A stretch of DNA of 52,064 nt from positions 1 through 52,064 of the forward strand of contig VXPE01000054.1 in the NCBI GenBank assembly GCA_009839745.1. The letters run 5' to 3'. The translations under genes were made by a program, and so were the position numbers. The DNA is from Candidatus Poribacteria bacterium. GTDB lineage: Bacteria; Poribacteria; WGA-4E; WGA-3G. Below are positions 11,669 through 42,644 of the stretch, one piece after another. Numbering within the stretch: position 1 is the stretch's first letter; every line of letters starts with the position of its first letter. Below the pieces are notes generated by a model. That model saw only the letters and a program-made list of their open reading frames with translations. It was not told the origin of the DNA and did no database searches.

Positions 11669-12679
11669 ATGAAAAAAATAAAGAACGTCGGTTTATTCGT
11701 CAATACGACCAAAGCAAACGCGGCGGGTGTCGTCGAAGGCGTGTCTATGTGGTTAGAGGAACAGGACACCGTTCCACTTTTATCAGACGAACAAGCCGTT
11801 GCCTTAGGACATCCGCAAACGGGCATCTCCAAAACAGAGGTCGTAGAGCACGCCGATGTGCTTCTCGTGCTTGGCGGAGATGGGACGCTCCTCAGCGCAG
11901 CGCATACACCGAAAATTGAAAATGTGCCTATCTTAGCGATCAACATCGGAACGCTTGGATTCCTGACAGACGCATCCCTCGATGAACTCTATCCGACACT
12001 GACCGCCCTTTTGACAGGGGCTTATCGGATAGAACATCGGATGATGTTGGAGGTCATTGTGAACGGTCTCCAAGCCGATGCCAACGAACTGCAAGGGACC
12101 CTTAACACCAAAAACGCAGCCCGTAACGCGCAGGGACGAGGTGACCTCGCCCAGACAGAGGACGGATATACAGAAAGACACGTCACACATGAAACCCAGC
12201 TGACTGAACCGCAAGGTAACATTAAAACTTTTGCCCTCAACGATGTTGTGATTCGGCACTACACGCATCTCATTGAATTAGATGCTTACGTCGACGGAGA
12301 ACTCTTTATACCTTATAACGCCGATGGGCTGATCATCGCAACGCCGAGCGGATCGACCGGATACTCGCTCTCCTGTGCTGGGACTATCGTCGCCCCACAG
12401 GTGGAGGCGATTCTGCTGACCCCCATCGCACCCCATAGCTTGACAGTGCGCCCCTTTATCGCTGACGGTGCTGCGGAAATAACCGTCAAAATGCGCGCTG
12501 CATACCAGAGTGTAGATGTTTTTGTGGACGGTCAACGCGAGACCTACAGTCTCACCGCGGGTGCCGTCATCAGCGTGAAAAAAGCGGAACGAACAATTCA
12601 ACTCATCCGTTCACAGAACCATAGTTACTACAGAGCTTTACGCGAAAAACTCATGTTGGGCGAGAGAATTTTTAAATAA
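11669..12679 (+). CDS. nadK: NAD kinase with repeat-derived internal insertion
   Basis: This enzyme phosphorylates NAD to NADP, a cytoplasmic housekeeping step. Core motifs: LGGDGTLLSA (about residues 68-77), NIGTLGFLTD, ALNDVVIRH, and the active-site ADGLIIATPSGSTGYSLS with PIAPHSLTVRP. At 336 aa it is 40-50 aa longer than usual. The excess is one block, residues about 135-188, between RMMLEVIVNG and ALNDVVI, encoded by repeat SR1 (EDGYTERHVTHETQLTEPQG). The insertion is in frame and all catalytic motifs remain, so the enzyme is probably functional, with the block as a surface loop. Its ATG follows the previous stop by zero bases. Confidence 0.9.
   Translation: MKKIKNVGLFVNTTKANAAGVVEGVSMWLEEQDTVPLLSDEQAVALGHPQTGISKTEVVEHADVLLVLGGDGTLLSAAHTPKIENVPILAINIGTLGFLTDASLDELYPTLTALLTGAYRIEHRMMLEVIVNGLQADANELQGTLNTKNAARNAQGRGDLAQTEDGYTERHVTHETQLTEPQGNIKTFALNDVVIRHYTHLIELDAYVDGELFIPYNADGLIIATPSGSTGYSLSCAGTIVAPQVEAILLTPIAPHSLTVRPFIADGAAEITVKMRAAYQSVDVFVDGQRETYSLTAGAVISVKKAERTIQLIRSQNHSYYRALREKLMLGERIFK
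12115..12227 (+). repeat. SR1 repeat, copy 1, inside nadK (in frame)
   Basis: Runs from CGCAGCCCGTAACG through a REP-like hairpin (CGAGGTGACCTCG) to GACGGATATACAGAAAGACA and the core CTGACTGAACCGCAAGG, then TAACATTAAAA. It shares this order with the copies at 14664, 31698, 32459 and 36701. Translated in the nadK frame it gives EDGYTERHVTHETQLTEPQG followed by NIK. Confidence 0.85.
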
Positions 12680-12715
12680 TGTACATATCCCTATCCGAGT
12701 TGGAATTAACTGAAA

Positions 12716-12806
12716 ACCGTTGTGGAACGAAATTATGCCTTAAATGGCATAATTTGTCTTTGCTTTACATTTGGAACAATGCCCAGCGTTAAGGGTTTAA
12801 AAAATG
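12716..12806 (+). repeat. SR2 start-site repeat, copy 2 (interrupted by a hairpin)
   Basis: CGTTGT (12718-12723) pairs with ACAATG (12776-12781). The loop contains a second perfect 10-bp hairpin, AAATTATGCC-TTAAAT-GGCATAATTT (12730-12755). CCCAGCG, AAGGG and TTTAAAAAATG follow, so the copy supplies the Shine-Dalgarno and abuts the recN start at 12804. Confidence 0.65.
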
Positions 12807-14663: not shown

Positions 14664-14759
14664 GTGCGCAGCTTGGTGCGTAGTGGAAAGCGACTCTACG
14701 GAATAGAACGTCGATAGCCAAACCAATTGGACCGAACCGCAAGGAACATTTAAAAAATG
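14664..14759 (+). repeat. SR1 repeat, copy 2, ending on a start codon
   Basis: From GTGCGCAGCTTGGTGCGTAG (a weak CGCA/TGCG hairpin) through CTCTACGGAATAGAACGTC to the core TTGGACCGAACCGCAAGGAA and CATTTAAAAAATGG. AAGGA sits 11 bases before the ATG at 14757, so the repeat supplies the ribosome site and the start codon. The TERH frame is broken here (TE-stop-N), so this copy is not translated through. Confidence 0.85.
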
Positions 14760-17700: not shown

Positions 17701-18407
17701 CCGAAAAACAACGGATCCTGACAAAAAAACGTAATGGGAAACGTTTAACGCGAGAATACGTAACACTTGTTAAAAATACCATTGAAACGCTGAATCTCGA
17801 TTCAGACAGCATCCACCGAATCCTCGCACTCTATATCTATGATTTGATCCAGTTCGAGGATATTAACTACGCGCGGATATACGTTGAAAAAATTAAACAG
17901 GTCTACGCCCACGACTCAGAAGTGTATCACTATCGCGCGACAAAAGCCGCGATTCGCTATCTCCACAAGGTGATGCTCATCAAGGACGAGGTCTACGTCG
18001 CACATCTGCTAACGAGCGAGGAAAAATTGCAGCGGGATAAGGAATTGTATAAGGTTGACCCAGCAAACGGTGATAGGATTAAATACGTCCATCTCAACCG
18101 TCCACATTTCACCGTGATGGGGCTTGATCTTGAAGGGGATATTGACACACGCAATTGGCAATTGCATCTGATGAAACGGATGAAGTTCTTAAGACGTTGG
18201 CTTCCAGAATGGCACGCCAAGGAAAAAGCGTTTCGAGACTGGTATATTACCCGCGTAATTGACACCTTCTCACCGATTGACACTGAGACGTATGAAAAGC
18301 ATCTCCAAGCGTTAGAATGTGTGGAGGAAGTTCGTGGCTATCGCGACATTCGCTATCCGAAAATGGAAACGGCGAAACAGAAAGTTGAAGGCCTACTTGC
18401 AGAATGA
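14757..18407 (+). CDS. Fused indolepyruvate:ferredoxin oxidoreductase
   Basis: A 1216-aa single-chain 2-oxoacid:ferredoxin oxidoreductase that oxidatively decarboxylates aryl pyruvates to acyl-CoA. Order: an N-terminal domain (GYPGSPLAEVFDTIERN), a linker, a TPP domain with TFCPGCPHRDSSS, GDIGCYSML and GDSTFFHGG...ILDNQTTAMTGHQPTP, a ferredoxin-like Cys cluster (CEFCRECTTATGC, then CVSDGACARIKYAC), a gamma-type domain (GVGGMGIGTISKV, DRKGLAIRNGG) and a C-terminal domain of about 200 aa seen in fused forms. The linker at about residues 388-405 (TSTVGGTSSPRQTPP) is low in complexity and coincides with a GTAG hairpin. The stop overlaps the next ATG (ATGA). Confidence 0.9.
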   Translation: MDDRFTQASGTHVYTGCELLVKGALESGVSLLTGYPGSPLAEVFDTIERNAELLKTNGIVAQIANNEALSIARLNGSQMADVRAITFMKSVGFHVASDALAISNLAGTTGGAVVVVGDDTWSHSTQVPADSRFLARHVQTPLIEPATFQELKDWIHCAFEISAASNLYVCYLTTENQASGGGNVELHPNIYPEISDLKQINLDTQYIDADKRVVLPPHTAQIEVEALRERIPTALETARNLGLNTIQFMGEGEGTAPLRKKHRIGFVSAGLAYSCLLHALGELGVDGEIPILKLGMTHPIDTDLIREFAAQVDEIYVFEEKRPLLENEIKAFITQGYQNGDMDRYVNVWGKQFPNGLTGIPVTSGLDTSILIQKLIPLLKHLLGTSDTSTVGGTSSPRQTPPTYHDPKIDLEHISGEETLQQQVSAQQIDIPQRTPTFCPGCPHRDSSSVFLEITEQFMDVGYMKKHHDSGPVDLVFHGDIGCYSMLKYEPFPRLMHNLSAMALGGGAGAGIDPFIKNKQIVFMGDSTFFHGGMAAISDSIKNDQDIAYIILDNQTTAMTGHQPTPAGELDLLGNPTFAQDIEQVAQGLVGNSDIEIVRTNPEDRVNYKKHLEKTILKSGVKIIIADKECAITYQRRIRREQRQTVAKDGFLKYEKHINITPEVCEFCRECTTATGCPALKIVDTDYGEKIAIDQSNCVSDGACARIKYACPAFEEVIVTRKRPPQDQTTDSRNRALLSDEPLPPPPLRTFEQRWNMYAAGVGGMGIGTISKVLVVAGYLQGYNVTFCDRKGLAIRNGGVYTHITYMQPGVHASPMIPYGKADLLLGLDILEAVRGITAQSLFRIASPHRTTAVVNTAKTETITTLIGKDDFDPETLEASLQTYTNADTYFGTDLFRVSEQLFGNKLYANMMLLGTAFQRQMIPLELEPLRLALKQMVPHADLDTNMKAFTVGRRLALENTESLADTRSERDPLGTYAEMLSEKQRILTKKRNGKRLTREYVTLVKNTIETLNLDSDSIHRILALYIYDLIQFEDINYARIYVEKIKQVYAHDSEVYHYRATKAAIRYLHKVMLIKDEVYVAHLLTSEEKLQRDKELYKVDPANGDRIKYVHLNRPHFTVMGLDLEGDIDTRNWQLHLMKRMKFLRRWLPEWHAKEKAFRDWYITRVIDTFSPIDTETYEKHLQALECVEEVRGYRDIRYPKMETAKQKVEGLLAE
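15927..15946 (+). repeat. Degenerate GTAG-REP inside a coding linker
   Basis: GTAG followed by GGCGGG-ACCT-CCAGCC, a hairpin with one G-A mismatch. It falls in the low-complexity linker of the oxidoreductase gene, where an inserted element would be tolerated. Confidence 0.4.
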
Positions 18408-18454
18408 AATCCCAGACTCACGTCATCGAACCGCAAGGCACAATAAAAAAATTG
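18404..18454 (+). repeat. SR1 repeat, copy 3 (3' part), at the ior/aroE junction
   Basis: ATGAAATCCCAGACTCACGT then CATCGAACCGCAAGGCACAA and TAAAAAAATTG. It begins exactly at the end of the upstream gene and ends on a TTG. Same reading frame as in nadK (EPQGTIK). Aligns with the copy at 31698 (GTGAAATCATTAACCCACTT). Confidence 0.8.
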
Positions 18455-19291
18455 ACCGGACATACTCGTATTGTCGGTGTTATTGGTGATCCCGTTGTGC
18501 ACAGCCGTTCACCACAAATGCACAATGCGGCTTTTGCCAAAGCAGGTCTCGATTATGTATATGTCCCGTTTCATGTCCGCCCTGATGATTTGGCAGCTGC
18601 GATTGCTGGGTTTAAAGCGATTAACGTCGTCGGGATTAACGTAACACTCCCACACAAACAAGCCGTCATCCCGTTCCTTACATCAATCTCTCGGGAAGCG
18701 GAACTCATCGGTGCTGTGAACACCCTGACGTTTGTTGACGGGAACATACATGGCGATAATACAGATGCCCCCGGTGTCTTACAAGCGTTAGACGAGGACG
18801 GAAACCTGTCTGGGACGCCGGTAGGCGAGAAGGTCGTGGTTTTGGGAGCAGGCGGCGCTGCGAGGGCTGTCGTTGTTGCGTTAGCACTGAGAGGCGTAGC
18901 CGCGATTACAATCGCCAATCGCACGGTGGAAAAAGCGGTTTCTTTAGCAACAGAGATGGATCAGAAGACAGGGGTTTCCATGCAAGGAATGGGGCTCACA
19001 GATGAACGATTGCCGCTATCTGTTCGGGAGAGCAAACTCCTTGTCAACACTGCAACGATAAGCATGGATGTAACACACCCCTTACTGATTTCCGCTGACT
19101 GGCTTCAACCGAATACTATTGTTTATGACATTGTGTATACGCCGCCGGTAACACCTTTGATGCAAGCCGCGACCGAGCGCGGCTGTCAAACGCTTGGTGG
19201 TATTGGGATGTTAGTTCATCAGGGGGCTATCGCGTTTGAGAAATGGACGGGTGTTGCGCCGTGCATTGAGACAATGCGTCAAGCCCTATAG
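18404..19291 (+). CDS. aroE: Shikimate dehydrogenase
   Basis: This enzyme reduces 3-dehydroshikimate with NADPH in the chorismate pathway. Motifs: SRSPQMHNAAF (substrate), NVTLPHKQ with the catalytic Lys, GDNTDAPG, the Rossmann loop GAGGAARAVV and NRTVEKA. The first 16 residues (KSQTHVIEPQGTIKK) come from an SR1 repeat and are not part of a normal AroE, which would begin at about LTGHTRIVGVIGDP. Two starts are therefore possible: ATG 18404, overlapping the previous stop, or TTG 18452 with AAGG 12 bases before it. Aromatic pathway and aryl-pyruvate metabolism are thus linked in one operon. Confidence 0.93.
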   Translation: MKSQTHVIEPQGTIKKLTGHTRIVGVIGDPVVHSRSPQMHNAAFAKAGLDYVYVPFHVRPDDLAAAIAGFKAINVVGINVTLPHKQAVIPFLTSISREAELIGAVNTLTFVDGNIHGDNTDAPGVLQALDEDGNLSGTPVGEKVVVLGAGGAARAVVVALALRGVAAITIANRTVEKAVSLATEMDQKTGVSMQGMGLTDERLPLSVRESKLLVNTATISMDVTHPLLISADWLQPNTIVYDIVYTPPVTPLMQAATERGCQTLGGIGMLVHQGAIAFEKWTGVAPCIETMRQAL

Positions 19292-31697: not shown

Positions 31698-31789
31698 GTA
31701 GCCTGCAACAACGGCGCAGGCGGATATACGCAAAAGCACGTGAAATCATTAACCCACTTGATCGAACCGCAAGGAAAAATTAAAGAATG
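31698..31789 (+). repeat. SR1 repeat, copy 4, ending on a start codon
   Basis: Starts with GTAG-CCTGC...GCAGG, a REP-like hairpin, then CGGATATACGCAAAAGCACG and TGAAATCATTAACCCACTTG. It ends with the core ATCGAACCGCAAGGAAAAAT and TAAAGAATGG. AAGGA lies 11 bases before the ATG at 31787. Read in the nadK-like frame it encodes GGYTQKHVKSLTHLIEPQGK. Confidence 0.88.
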
Positions 31790-32467
31790 GAAGCGATTAT
31801 TCTGTGCGGCGGTCTCGCCACGCGGCTCGGTGAGACAGCGAAAACACTGCCGAAGATTCTGCTGGAGATCGCTGGGAAAACAGTATTGGAATGGCAAATC
31901 CAATTGCTGAGAGATGTAGGTGTCACCTCGGTCATCCTCGCGTCGGGACACCTTCACGATGTGCTTTATGGGCGGGTAGGAGACGCTTACGCTGGGATGT
32001 GTATCCGTTATGCCAAAGAGGAAAAGCGACTCGGTACTGGCGGCGCGATTCAGCATGCGATGCAGCAGATCGATACATCGCCCTTTTTTGTCCTAAACGG
32101 CGATATTCTGATCGCTAACTTTTCGCTACGGGAAATGTTGGTTCGATTTGAGCAAGGGATGGCAGGGGTGCTGTTAAGTGTGCATGTCCCGGACATCCGT
32201 CCCTACGGCGAGATTGTATCGGACGGTGAGGGAAAAATTCAGGCGTTTCGTGAGAAACAGTCTACCCGTTGTGCTGGGTATATCAACAGTGGGGTATATC
32301 TTTTCGATCGAAGCATTGCTGACACGTTTCCAAGCGACCGAGAAAACTTCTCTATGGAACGAGACGTTTTTCCATCCGTTTCCAATCTCTATACTTTAGA
32401 AACGGATGCCGACTGGATCGATATCGGTGTTCCAGAGCGGCTGGCTCACGCCCGTGAACATTTTTAA
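31787..32467 (+). CDS. Sugar-1-phosphate nucleotidyltransferase (HddC/RmlA-like)
   Basis: A 226-aa cytoplasmic enzyme that activates a sugar phosphate with an NTP. It has the signature MEAIILCGGLATRLGE, TLPKILLEIAGKTVLEWQI, GTGGAIQHA and the metal-binding LNGDILI, then the C-terminal Asp region ADWIDIGVPERL. Size and motifs match the heptose-1-phosphate or mannose-1-phosphate group; donor and sugar cannot be told apart. It is flanked by inverted SR1 copies: its ATG is the end of one, and its TAA lies inside the other. Confidence 0.87.
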   Translation: MEAIILCGGLATRLGETAKTLPKILLEIAGKTVLEWQIQLLRDVGVTSVILASGHLHDVLYGRVGDAYAGMCIRYAKEEKRLGTGGAIQHAMQQIDTSPFFVLNGDILIANFSLREMLVRFEQGMAGVLLSVHVPDIRPYGEIVSDGEGKIQAFREKQSTRCAGYINSGVYLFDRSIADTFPSDRENFSMERDVFPSVSNLYTLETDADWIDIGVPERLAHAREHF

Positions 32468-32559
32468 TTTTCCTTGCGGTTCGATCAGGTGAGTTTAGCA
32501 CTTTGACGCTTCTTTCCGTAGATCCGCTTTCTGTACGGGTTGGGCGACCCAACCGCTAC
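32459..32559 (-). repeat. SR1 repeat, copy 5, inverted, with REP head
   Basis: On the minus strand: GTAGC-GGTTGGG-TCG-CCCAACC (REP, 32559-32538), AAAGCGGATCTACGGAAAG, a middle part, CACCTGATCGAACCGCAAGG, AAAATTAAAAATG. The last bases overlap the stop of the nucleotidyltransferase gene. Its ATG leads only into the antisense of that gene. This copy shows most clearly that the REP hairpin is the 5' head of SR1. The two SR1 copies face inwards around the gene. Confidence 0.85.
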
Positions 32560-32621
32560 GCGTTCCAAGCTACCTGATCTTTAACCTATATCCCTCTTTA
32601 CTGACAATTTTTTGTCGACTG

Positions 32622-36585: not shown

Positions 36586-36700
36586 TATTGGGAAATATTC
36601 ACAGATGGCAGTCGGGTGTCTGTAGGGATCCCTAAAACAATACGTATCCATCTACTCTCAAACTTGCAGTATATTTATGTGCAAACTCCTAATCACTGAC

Positions 36701-36791
36701 GCGCAGCCCGTAACGAAGTGGAGGGCGGTTTTACGGAAAGGCACTTCATTCATCAAACCCGCCTCAACGAACCGCAAGGAATAATTAAAAA
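36701..36791 (+). repeat. SR1 repeat, copy 6, read into the following gene
   Basis: GCGCAGCCCGTAACG, GTGGAGGGCGGTTTTACGG, AAAGGCACTTCATTC, and the core CAACGAACCGCAAGGAATAA then TTAAAA. In the frame of the downstream gene it reads EGGFTERHFIHQTRLNEPQG then IIK, closely similar to the nadK copy. No ATG follows the core in this copy. Confidence 0.85.
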
Positions 36792-38727
36792 TTCGCTAAC
36801 ATTATCACAAATTCCCGCCCACGGTGTCACACTCAAATCTATTCTTATTGCTGTTATTCTAATACCGATTAACTGCTACTGGGTTATTGAGATGGAGGTT
36901 ATTCGGTATTCAGGTCATCCTGTGACGATTTCCCTCTTTTTTAATGTGATCTTCAGTCTATTCCTGATTATCGGCATGAACGCCCTGTTGCGCCGTTTCA
37001 TCCCGAGTTTAGCATTGGCACAAAGCGAGTTAGTCATTGTTTACCTGATGCTTTCCATTGCTTCGGGAATTACTGGTCACGATATGCTTGAGATTTTGGT
37101 ACCGATGTTAGGGCATGCCTTCCGTTTTGCTACCCCGGAAAACGAATGGCAACAGTTGTTTGTCCCCTTCCTGCCAAAGTGGCTCACCATTAGCGACCCG
37201 TCCCTTCTACACGGCTATTATGAGGGTGAACTCCCGCTTTACACAGTTGACACATTGCTTGGCTGGGCAACGCCGGTCCTCTGGTGGACTGCCTTTATTA
37301 CTGTGTTGATTTTCGGAATGCTTTGCATCAATATAATTGTTCGTAAACAATGGATCGAACACGAGAAATTAAGTTATCCGATCATCCAACTCCCGCTCCA
37401 ATTGACAGAAACACCACGGAATCGCCTCTTTCAGAATAAATTGATGTGGCTCGGTTTTGGCATTGCTGGTGCGCTTGCTTTCTGGAATGGTGTCAACTTT
37501 CTGTACCCGATCCTACCTGAGCTACGAACCCGTGTGCGAAGTTTCCAAATTTTTACGGAGAGCCCGTGGAACGCTATGGGGAGAATTCCGTTTTCATTGT
37601 ATCCGTTCGCGATCGGACTCGGTTTCTTTATTCCTCTTGATCTCTCCTTCTCGTGTTGGTTCTTCTTCTGGTATTGGCGTTTCATGCGTGTCCTCGGTGC
37701 TGCCCTTGGATTACGGAGTCTGCCTCGCTTTCCGTACATGAACGAGCAGGCATCAGGTGGCTACCTCGCTTTGTGTGCTTTAGCTATCTGGGCAAGCCGC
37801 AAACACCTTTTGGACGTTGCCAAAACAGTCTTTGGATTTGGAAGGATTTCGGAGGACACCCGGCAAGAACCGATGTCATATCGCGGCGCGACGATCGGTC
37901 TTATCGCAGTAATGGCATTCCTTGTACTTTTTTGCTACTATGGGGGTGCTGAAATTTGGGTGATGTTTGCATTCTTCGTTATTTATTATATGATCTCCAT
38001 TGCTATTACGCGAATGCGCGCCGAATTAGGCACGCCTGTGCATGATCTTCACTACTCCGGTCCTGATGAGATTTTGAGTCGGACTGTCGGAACAAGGCGT
38101 TTGGGGAGAGACAACCTCATTATGTTTTCGATGTTTTGGTTTATCAATCGTGCGCATCGAAGCCATCCAATGCCGCACCAGCTCGAAGGTTTCAAGATCA
38201 TGGAACGGACAAACATGACGATGAACCGTATCATTTTCGCCTTAACGCTTGCGACTATTTTAGGATCGTTAGCAGGATTTTGGGCGTTAATCGACCGCGG
38301 GTATCGCCTCGGCATGGAGGTCCGCGCCTATTGGCCCTCTCTCAGTGCCTTTGGCATAGAGCCGTATCGTCGGCTTGCGGGATGGTTGCAAGCCCCAGAA
38401 GAGACACTCATCCCTGAAAGCGGATTTATGGGTCTGGGGTTCCTCTTAACAACAGTGTTAATGTTCTTTCGGATGCGATTCGTATGGTGGCCCTTTCATC
38501 CCGCAGGTTTCGCTATCTCTACGAGTTGGGGGATGAATGTTACGTGGAGCTGCCTTTTCATGAGTTGGTTAATCAAGTGGCTTATTCTTCAGTATGGCGG
38601 TGTCGTCCGGCATCGCAAGATAGCTCCCTTTTTCTTAGGGTTAATTTTGGGGGAGTTTACGGTCGGGAGTCTCTGGACAATCTTAGGGATTATCGCCGGC
38701 ATTCCGACTTATGGATTTTGGGTGTAG
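36718..38727 (+). CDS. Large polytopic membrane protein (DUF6785/OPT-like)
   Basis: Up to 669 aa with about 12-14 membrane segments. The first (IAVILIPINCYWVIEMEV) is followed by GHPVTISLFFNVIFSLFLI, and ELVIVYLMLSIASGITGHDM lies near residue 95. This resembles the DUF6785/6784 proteins of Planctomycetes and allies, distant relatives of oligopeptide transporters; substrate unknown. The start is a problem: GTG 36718 lies inside the SR1 repeat with no Shine-Dalgarno, and no ATG/GTG/TTG follows the repeat core before the first membrane segment. Either the repeat peptide is a real N-terminus or a rare start is used. Confidence 0.72.
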   Translation: MEGGFTERHFIHQTRLNEPQGIIKNSLTLSQIPAHGVTLKSILIAVILIPINCYWVIEMEVIRYSGHPVTISLFFNVIFSLFLIIGMNALLRRFIPSLALAQSELVIVYLMLSIASGITGHDMLEILVPMLGHAFRFATPENEWQQLFVPFLPKWLTISDPSLLHGYYEGELPLYTVDTLLGWATPVLWWTAFITVLIFGMLCINIIVRKQWIEHEKLSYPIIQLPLQLTETPRNRLFQNKLMWLGFGIAGALAFWNGVNFLYPILPELRTRVRSFQIFTESPWNAMGRIPFSLYPFAIGLGFFIPLDLSFSCWFFFWYWRFMRVLGAALGLRSLPRFPYMNEQASGGYLALCALAIWASRKHLLDVAKTVFGFGRISEDTRQEPMSYRGATIGLIAVMAFLVLFCYYGGAEIWVMFAFFVIYYMISIAITRMRAELGTPVHDLHYSGPDEILSRTVGTRRLGRDNLIMFSMFWFINRAHRSHPMPHQLEGFKIMERTNMTMNRIIFALTLATILGSLAGFWALIDRGYRLGMEVRAYWPSLSAFGIEPYRRLAGWLQAPEETLIPESGFMGLGFLLTTVLMFFRMRFVWWPFHPAGFAISTSWGMNVTWSCLFMSWLIKWLILQYGGVVRHRKIAPFFLGLILGEFTVGSLWTILGIIAGIPTYGFWV

Positions 38728-41692: not shown

Positions 41693-41729
41693 TTTTAATT
41701 GTTCCTTGCGGTTCGGTCAGGTGGGTTTA
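41693..41729 (-). repeat. SR1 repeat, copy 7 (3' part), between thrB and the pseudo-ATPase
   Basis: On the minus strand: AAACCCACCTGACCGAACCG, CAAGGAACAATTAAAA. It begins directly at the thrB stop (TTTTTTAAACCC) and ends 9 bases before the next ATG. AAGGA is 18 bases from the ATG, further than in the other copies. Frame: THLTEPQGTIK. Confidence 0.82.
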
Positions 41730-42644
41730 AAAAACGCTTGCTCCGTGAGCATCCGGCTTCAAAATTTTAATATCAGACGCGATCTGGTGCTTTTCAAAGG
41801 CGGCTTGCATTTTCTCAGCAACCCGTTCTGTGTGCTCCAGACAATAGGCTGCGATCGTTGGTCCTGCCCCGCTCAATGTAACGCTAAGTGCGCCAGCAGC
41901 GGTAGCGGCTTCTGCCACATCATCAAATCCTGGAATTAGTGAAGTGCGGTAAGGTTGATGCAACCTATCCTTCATTGCCACACGCAACATTTCAAATTGT
42001 CTTGTAGCAATACTGGCGATTAGCAGTGTGCTCCGGCTTGTATTATAGATTGCATCTGCGAAATCTACTGATTTCGGTAAAACCCCGCGTGCTTGCTCCG
42101 TTGAGAGTGGAAAATCAGGAATCGCCAATACAATCGACAGGAGGGACGGACATTCTAATCGAACAGTATGCACCTGATCACCCTCCTGTGCTGAAACGAC
42201 AAGCCCGCCATACAGTGAGGCAGCGACGTTATCGGGATGCCCTTCCAGTTCAGTCGCAAAGTTGAGCAGTTCCGTGTCAGAAAATGGAGTGTCGCAGAGG
42301 GCATTTGCAGTAAGCAACCCTCCAAGAATGGCTGTTCCACTGCCGCCGAGACCCCGAATTGCAGGTATCCCATTTTCTATCTGCAATCTGAAGCCTTTCG
42401 GACGTTTCGTCCCACTTCGATGGAAAACGAGTTCTACGGCTTGAAACGCGACATGCGCCGGCGTACTGGGTATTTTATCCGCATCTACGCCGCTGACAAT
42501 CACTTCAGTCCCGGTTTCAGAAGGTTCTAACGTAACAGTGCTATAGAGTTGGAGGGCAAGCCCTAACACGTCGAATCCGGGTCCCAGATTCGTTGTGCTT
42601 GCCGGGATCCGTGCGGTAACTTTTCGGTTAAAAGTAGGAGGCAT
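41727..42644 (-). CDS. thrB: Homoserine kinase
   Basis: A 305-aa GHMP kinase that phosphorylates L-homoserine in threonine synthesis. ARIPASTTNLGPGFDVLGLA at the N-terminus, the ATP-binding loop IPAIRGLGGSGTAILGG, and GALSVTLSGAGPTIAAYC at the C-terminus are all present. It follows the aminotransferase gene by about 35 bp. The start region GAAGGTGTAATTAAAAATG resembles the tail of the SR1 repeat and provides the ribosome site. Confidence 0.93.
   Translation of the reverse strand: MPPTFNRKVTARIPASTTNLGPGFDVLGLALQLYSTVTLEPSETGTEVIVSGVDADKIPSTPAHVAFQAVELVFHRSGTKRPKGFRLQIENGIPAIRGLGGSGTAILGGLLTANALCDTPFSDTELLNFATELEGHPDNVAASLYGGLVVSAQEGDQVHTVRLECPSLLSIVLAIPDFPLSTEQARGVLPKSVDFADAIYNTSRSTLLIASIATRQFEMLRVAMKDRLHQPYRTSLIPGFDDVAEAATAAGALSVTLSGAGPTIAAYCLEHTERVAEKMQAAFEKHQIASDIKILKPDAHGASVF

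Follow-up and report, generated by a model that had tools for sequence, protein, structure and literature searches.

SR1, a Dispersed Poribacterial Repeat Adjoining Gene Starts and Lying In Frame within an NAD Kinase Gene

Introduction

Rickettsia and Wolbachia, which are intracellular bacteria with small genomes, already provide examples of selfish repeats read in frame within bacterial proteins. According to PMC2229807 and PMC10969869, the RPE (Ogata et al. 2000/2002) is a dispersed repeat of about 100–150 bp that carries an open frame and also occurs between genes. It is described there as lying in frame within conserved protein genes that are unrelated to one another, with 19 reading frames in one report, and its inserts, such as that in guanylate kinase, are considered likely neutral or slightly detrimental (PMC2229807, PMC10969869). 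Protein-coding palindromic repeats of Wolbachia are mentioned in PMC2229807, which cites Ogata 2005 for them.

Here we describe SR1, a repeat that would be an independent case, with 5–6 Mb genomes, sponge-associated bacteria, and many sites within one genus that can be compared with and without the repeat. The window, the whole 52,064-nt stretch of DNA that was analysed, comes from a Candidatus Poribacteria genome (G000) of 5.04 Mb over 141 contigs. The relatives named below are Poribacteria MAGs and are likewise sponge-associated. Our preferred reading, with a probability of about 0.82, is that SR1 is a non-coding, genus-specific repeat that has landed in frame in permissive loops or linkers, where it would be translated as a tolerated spacer.

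Results and Discussion

SR1 is a dispersed repeat of about 88 nt with a covarying hairpin at its 5′ end and a conserved 3′ end, CCGCAAGGWAWAATTAAAA; its consensus reads GTAGCCYGNAAC..GGCGGATATACGGAAAGGCAC..TCCAAACCNACCTGACCGAACCGCAAGGAAAAATTAAAA. The core GAACCGCAAGG occurs in the window seven times exactly and eight times with one mismatch, against 0.9 expected. Across the G000 genome, the 3′ core was found 281 times (6 for the reversed control) and the 19-mer CCGCAAGGWAWAATTAAAA 276 times (0 for the control). These copy numbers rule out chance resemblance among the copies. From about 0.5 Mb, 103 distinct copies were drawn, of which 99 extend to the 3′ end; about two thirds have a complete 5′ end, the others a ragged one. 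Covariation in the 5′ hairpin amounted to 19 two-sided-change cells, compared with 5.6 after shuffling (0 of 500 shuffles as high) and 0–7 in slid controls. The consensus fold was no better than that of shuffles. Rfam 15 gave no match in the window at the gathering score and none in four SR1 loci at E ≤ 1, and a literature search found no published description of SR1, which does not prove absence.

Exact 3′ ends were counted in 35 of the 36 genomes of the genus, at 1–284 per genome (control 0), and gave one match among 24 genomes of other families. Within this sampling, SR1 is restricted to a single Poribacteria genus. G021 is the sole genome of the genus with no exact 3′ end and G028 has one, while others exceed 280; these two genomes are natural controls for SR1 effects.

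The copy of main interest lies inside nadK, an essential gene, where the following features were located.

11669–12679, + strand: nadK, NAD kinase, 336 aa, with Pfam NAD_kinase and NAD_kinase_C
11873–11893, + strand: GGDGTLL catalytic motif, upstream of the insert, intact; invariant across a 40-sequence alignment
12086–12113, + strand: 3′ end, degenerate, of an SR1 copy preceding the full one, GAACTGCAAGGGACCCTTAACACCAAAA, in frame; core with one mismatch, and the inserts of G026, G034, and G005 are arranged alike
12117–12227, + strand: full SR1 copy in the nadK frame, residues about 150–186; profile match, with insert-free orthologues
12341–12367, + strand: TPSGSTGYS motif, downstream of the insert, intact; near-invariant across the 40-sequence alignment

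This gene encodes the sole NAD kinase found in G000, the remaining matches listed being repeat copies or UvrA. Pfam NAD_kinase matched residues 56–119 of the product and NAD_kinase_C residues 195–314, with an unmatched block in between. An SR1 profile matched 12117–12227 in the nadK frame with 52.0 bits (model positions 2–88), a score that is not fully independent, since the 12 copies behind the profile include this one. The copy has a local GGGACGAGGTGACCTCGCCC hairpin within the 5′ stem region, and its allele encodes the insert peptides HVTHETQLTEPQGNIK and GDLAQTEDGYTER. Just upstream, 12086–12096 (GAACTGCAAGG) is the SR1 core with one mismatch, and residues about 138–149, ANELQGTLNTKN, look like a spacer together with the 3′ end of another, degenerate copy. 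An earlier note on this DNA had called residues about 135–188 exactly SR1 read in frame; the in-frame repeat stands, but not the "exactly", as SR1 proper covers about 150–186 and is preceded by the degenerate copy and spacer.

The insert occupies the loop between MMLEV and FALNDVV. Loop length was 14–20 aa in 60 loci and 53–93 aa in 14, some of these loci being duplicates of one genome; the G000 loop has 60 aa. Insert-free orthologues measure about 287–308 aa; roughly two thirds of the genus and every other family examined have them. The same note had described a kinase 40–50 aa longer than usual, with intact catalytic motifs flanking the block and SR1 as an internal segment of its reading frame. 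All of this was borne out: the block adds about 40–45 aa over insert-free orthologues, GGDGTLL precedes it and TPSGSTGYS follows it, and insert-free orthologues occur both within the genus and throughout the other families examined. Distant NAD kinases thus lack the insertion, whose presence in them the note had named as refuting.

Read from its frame, the SR1 segment of nadK is probably translated, and it is probably retained in the mature NadK. Its size and patchy distribution would be compatible with removal beforehand, as an intron, an intein, or a segment bypassed by ribosomes. This is scarcely credible, as every insert-bearing allele has an insert that is a multiple of three in length and stop-free, the segment is far shorter than an intein, and the Rfam scan of the window gave no intron or other RNA. 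In an AlphaFold model of NadK, the insert lies between strands 119–131 and 184–189, with a pLDDT of about 30 at residues 136–182. Disorder of the insert is only suggested by this, as the model is of mediocre quality (mean pLDDT 65) and residues 211–255 are also low, probably from a shallow alignment. The best structural matches, the P. aeruginosa NAD kinases 7qvs and 7mh7, have a short corresponding loop (about residues 132–144). We infer that the insert is structurally inert.

Three versions of the insert were distinguished: one in G000, G008, and G023; one in G034, G026, G005, PCPOR4, G006, and G020; and one in G001, G012, and G035. In the second, the insert is tandemly duplicated in G026 and longer by 54 nt in PCPOR4, G006, and G020; PCPOR4 and G006 appear to be one genome, as their proteins agree. 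The third seems, from its sequence, to be made from a different repeat subtype. Contamination or misassembly is possible in single MAGs; the insert recurs in about a dozen genomes. On a tree of the nadK core with the neighbouring DUF368 and RecN genes, insert presence required eight changes, seven of them forced by well-supported branches, and insert-bearing and insert-free genomes were repeatedly sisters. Comparison of filled and empty nadK sites showed no visible target duplication, and flank identity between clades was not raised beyond about 30 nt, giving no sign of a recombination tract around the insert. Between nadK and recN, at 12677–12786, a second dispersed repeat is present, the palindrome AAATTATGCCTTAAATGGCATAATTT, whose core of about 50 nt recurs at 94–98% identity in dozens of places in the relatives.

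The dN/dS ratio was 0.01–0.12 for the nadK core, which shows purifying selection on the enzyme, and 0.18–0.89 for the insert. With every allele stop-free and a multiple of three in length, it is the frame and not the sequence of the insert that is kept. Between distant clades, insert dS was 0.12–0.51, well below the core values of 0.5–1.8, so the insert looks either younger than its lineages, through recent transfer, or constrained at the nucleotide level, and a purely neutral spacer is unproven. A single ancestral insertion followed by many clean losses would concern history and is compatible with our preferred reading. Version-specific features common to inserts of distant clades favor it, as do insert-bearing genomes poor in SR1 (7 exact ends in G005 and 5 in G012), where a fresh local insertion is unlikely. 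We nonetheless consider it a doubtful history, given at least two repeat subtypes at the nadK site, the low insert dS across clades, and at least seven changes on the tree.

The earlier note had further proposed that the reading frame is conserved across SR1 copies. This did not survive a count in 72 non-coding copies: the nadK frame was open in 42 (58%), against 60% expected from column frequencies under the assumption that SR1 columns vary independently, and the other two forward frames were open in 11–12%. Departures from the consensus were equal across codon positions (0.276, 0.276, and 0.303). Chance-level openness and equal codon-position variation give no sign of peptide selection in the SR1 family as a whole, and peptide-level selection across all copies is rejected. 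The open frame is a property of the SR1 nucleotide consensus, and on present alignments it is kept only in copies located in a gene. The similar peptide at 36718, offered as support, lies in a copy that is itself in a coding context and is not independent evidence; its likeness to the nadK peptide is a by-product of DNA homology.

Copies of SR1 also lie inside other genes, whose boundaries were taken from ORFs, not annotation; the search for in-frame cases was targeted and non-exhaustive. Both G000 and G026 carry an internal in-frame copy in the linker of a tandem UvrA-UvrA protein (1973 aa, L231:762-6680 on contig C66 of G000; contig C83 in G026) and another in a YegS/DAGK lipid kinase. The UvrA linker and the nadK insert share the extended segment EPQxxIADSNKxIARNAQGRGDL. 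The YegS/DAGK lipid kinase fold is related to that of NAD kinase, and the lipid-kinase insert sits in what seems to be the loop equivalent to that of NadK. A membrane glycosyltransferase-like protein and further unnamed ORFs also contain internal in-frame copies, and an AI-2E-type permease contains one in another frame, the permease and the glycosyltransferase-like protein being named by sequence appearance only. A repeat-like peptide, FNYTLRSNDMRLDFELRSSNPPAP..LQAAVL, adjoins SR1 inside ORFs of several genomes (L260, L261, and L271; G026 C82 and G010 C1), so in-frame reading may extend to more than a single repeat family. At 1043–1124 of the window, about four tandem 21-nt units, CAATTTTTGCGTGTTGACATA, each contain a TTGACA hexamer.

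Could SR1 instead encode a functional peptide module that is selected as protein and spreads through the peptide's action? In nadK, UvrA, and the lipid kinase, as in most N-terminal fusions, SR1 is indeed read in the same frame, and among the matches listed for five genomes nadK and UvrA alone have the extended EPQxxIADSNKxIARN version at full length within a long open frame. We regard this as very improbable, because openness of the non-coding copies is at chance, their codon positions are equally variable, the insert dN/dS is loose, and RuvC of relatives and the permease use another frame. Under our preferred reading, SR1 would be a dispersed non-coding element whose 5′ hairpin covaries, whose A-rich 3′ end is strongly conserved and often stops 1–2 nt before a start codon, and whose consensus is stop-free in one forward frame by happenstance. 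A copy (in nadK, a piece of a short tandem array) landing in a permissive surface loop or linker, in the right frame and with a length divisible by three, would be tolerated. It would then be translated as a flexible, probably disordered spacer, with selection keeping the frame and barely constraining the sequence.

Six further copies in the window illustrate the usual setting of SR1.

14668–14755, + strand: SR1 directly 5′ of an ATG; absent from G030, G010, and G026
18395–18455, + strand: partial SR1 before an aroE-like ORF (named by eye); absent from G030, G010, and G026
31698–31784, + strand: SR1 5′ of an ATG; other subtype in G008, G010, and G030, at most a short remnant in G023 and G026
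32461–32572, − strand: SR1 5′ of an ATG, non-coding control; lengths in relatives differ by non-multiples of three
36703–36790, + strand: SR1 forming an in-frame N-terminal fusion with ORF 36700–38724; no native ATG, GTG within SR1; length differences in multiples of three in G008, G023, and G030
41693–41761, − strand: 3′ part of SR1 between a stop codon and the following ATG; a full-length copy of another subtype there in G030, G010, and G026

In the genomes of the nadK comparison, the non-coding copy at 32461 showed 23- and 7-nt differences plus stops. The site at 31698–31784 and its syntenic counterparts hold differing SR1 subtypes or almost none across G000, G008, G023, G010, G030, and G026, a pattern that suggests fast turnover or copy replacement.

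An ORF of at least 80 aa began within 25 nt on the 3′ side in 60 of 102 copies, compared with 19% of random positions, and started at exactly +1 or +2 after SR1 in 38 of the 102. The AAGG of the SR1 3′ end sits about 11–12 nt before the ATG, a distance at which its role as a ribosome-binding site is putative. That SR1 might be mainly a regulatory 5′-UTR element, its nadK hairpin acting inside the ORF on expression or on the stability of the mRNA, would agree with the covarying hairpin, with most copies abutting start codons, and with the low insert dS expected if nucleotides matter. For nadK this is unlikely: the copy lies about 450 nt into the gene, well away from initiation, the stability of its fold does not reach significance (z −1.24), and many relatives lack the insert.

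About 13 genes have lost their native start codon and carry SR1 fused at the N-terminus. These include CoaD, CoaBC, RuvC, a formate dehydrogenase-like protein, a TrpB-like PLP enzyme, QueG, homocysteine methyltransferase, the window ORF 36700–38724, and others. An in-frame ATG within SR1 (positions 22–87) was present in 8 of 13 fusion copies, which were chosen by eye as open frames without a nearby in-frame ATG, vs 3 of 39 copies before a native start (Fisher p = 0.0002). For CoaBC, the relatives keep a native ATG start, of the MEF/MEY/MEL-KxRT-IILGVTGG type; in G026 SR1 lies 5′ of the intact ATG, and in G000 and G008 it is joined directly to IILGVTGG. The ATG excess and the CoaBC comparison together suggest that SR1 supplied the start codon in the fusion genes. 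If the start codon of CoaD lies in SR1, its predicted N-terminus begins with MHQTHLTEPQGILK. In RuvC of G008, G030, and G026, SR1 is read in another frame.

These features allow a tentative proposal, which we hold at somewhat short of even odds, that SR1 is a mobile translation-initiation module. It would combine AAGG and an A-rich leader at the 3′ end with an internal SD-like GGAAAGG and, after it, a codon easily turned into ATG. By inserting at gene starts, it would take over initiation of the essential genes coaD, coaBC, ruvC, trpB, and formate dehydrogenase after loss of the native start and add a repeat-derived N-terminal tail, and internal insertions of the nadK type would be the extreme of the same tolerance.

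Conclusions

SR1 makes it possible to test which loops tolerate repeats, whether their peptides are selected, and how start codons are replaced. Caution is advised with automatic start-site calls and with "insertions" in such proteins, as both may be repeat-derived.

Among known repeats, MITEs (Correia/NEMIS, RUP, ERIC) resemble SR1 in being small repeats of non-autonomous appearance, able to change the ends of genes and to fuse with ORFs. They differ in that the SR1 ends are not inverted repeats, the nadK filled/empty comparison shows no target duplication, and SR1 bears a start-proximal A-rich end. REP elements have GTAG at the hairpin foot, are mostly intergenic, and reach high copy numbers. 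The SR1 consensus, GTAG-CCYG..RGG, likewise places a GTAG head beside a hairpin, recalling REP/RAYT systems, whose RAYT enzymes are IS200/IS605-like Y1 transposases, but SR1 also occurs inside genes. G000 has seven PF01797 matches; of four loci examined, one has SR1 about 1.2 kb from the Y1_Tnp match, and none has flanking SR1 pairs.

Compared by description rather than by sequence, the RPE appears to be the closest precedent, and the Wolbachia repeats, likewise protein-coding in symbiont genes, differ from SR1 in the same ways. Like the RPE, SR1 lies in frame in unrelated genes that have insert-free orthologues (nadK and the CoaBC N-terminus), and also in UvrA and the lipid kinase. Unlike the RPE, it is no whole-length palindrome, pairing with covariation being shown only for positions 1–33, and its host belongs to another phylum. 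SR1 also has a conserved AAGG..A-rich end, is strongly enriched directly before start codons, apparently provides such codons itself, and reaches up to about 280 exact 3′ ends per genome. SR1 may thus be viewed as a start-proximal counterpart of the RPE in one Poribacteria genus.
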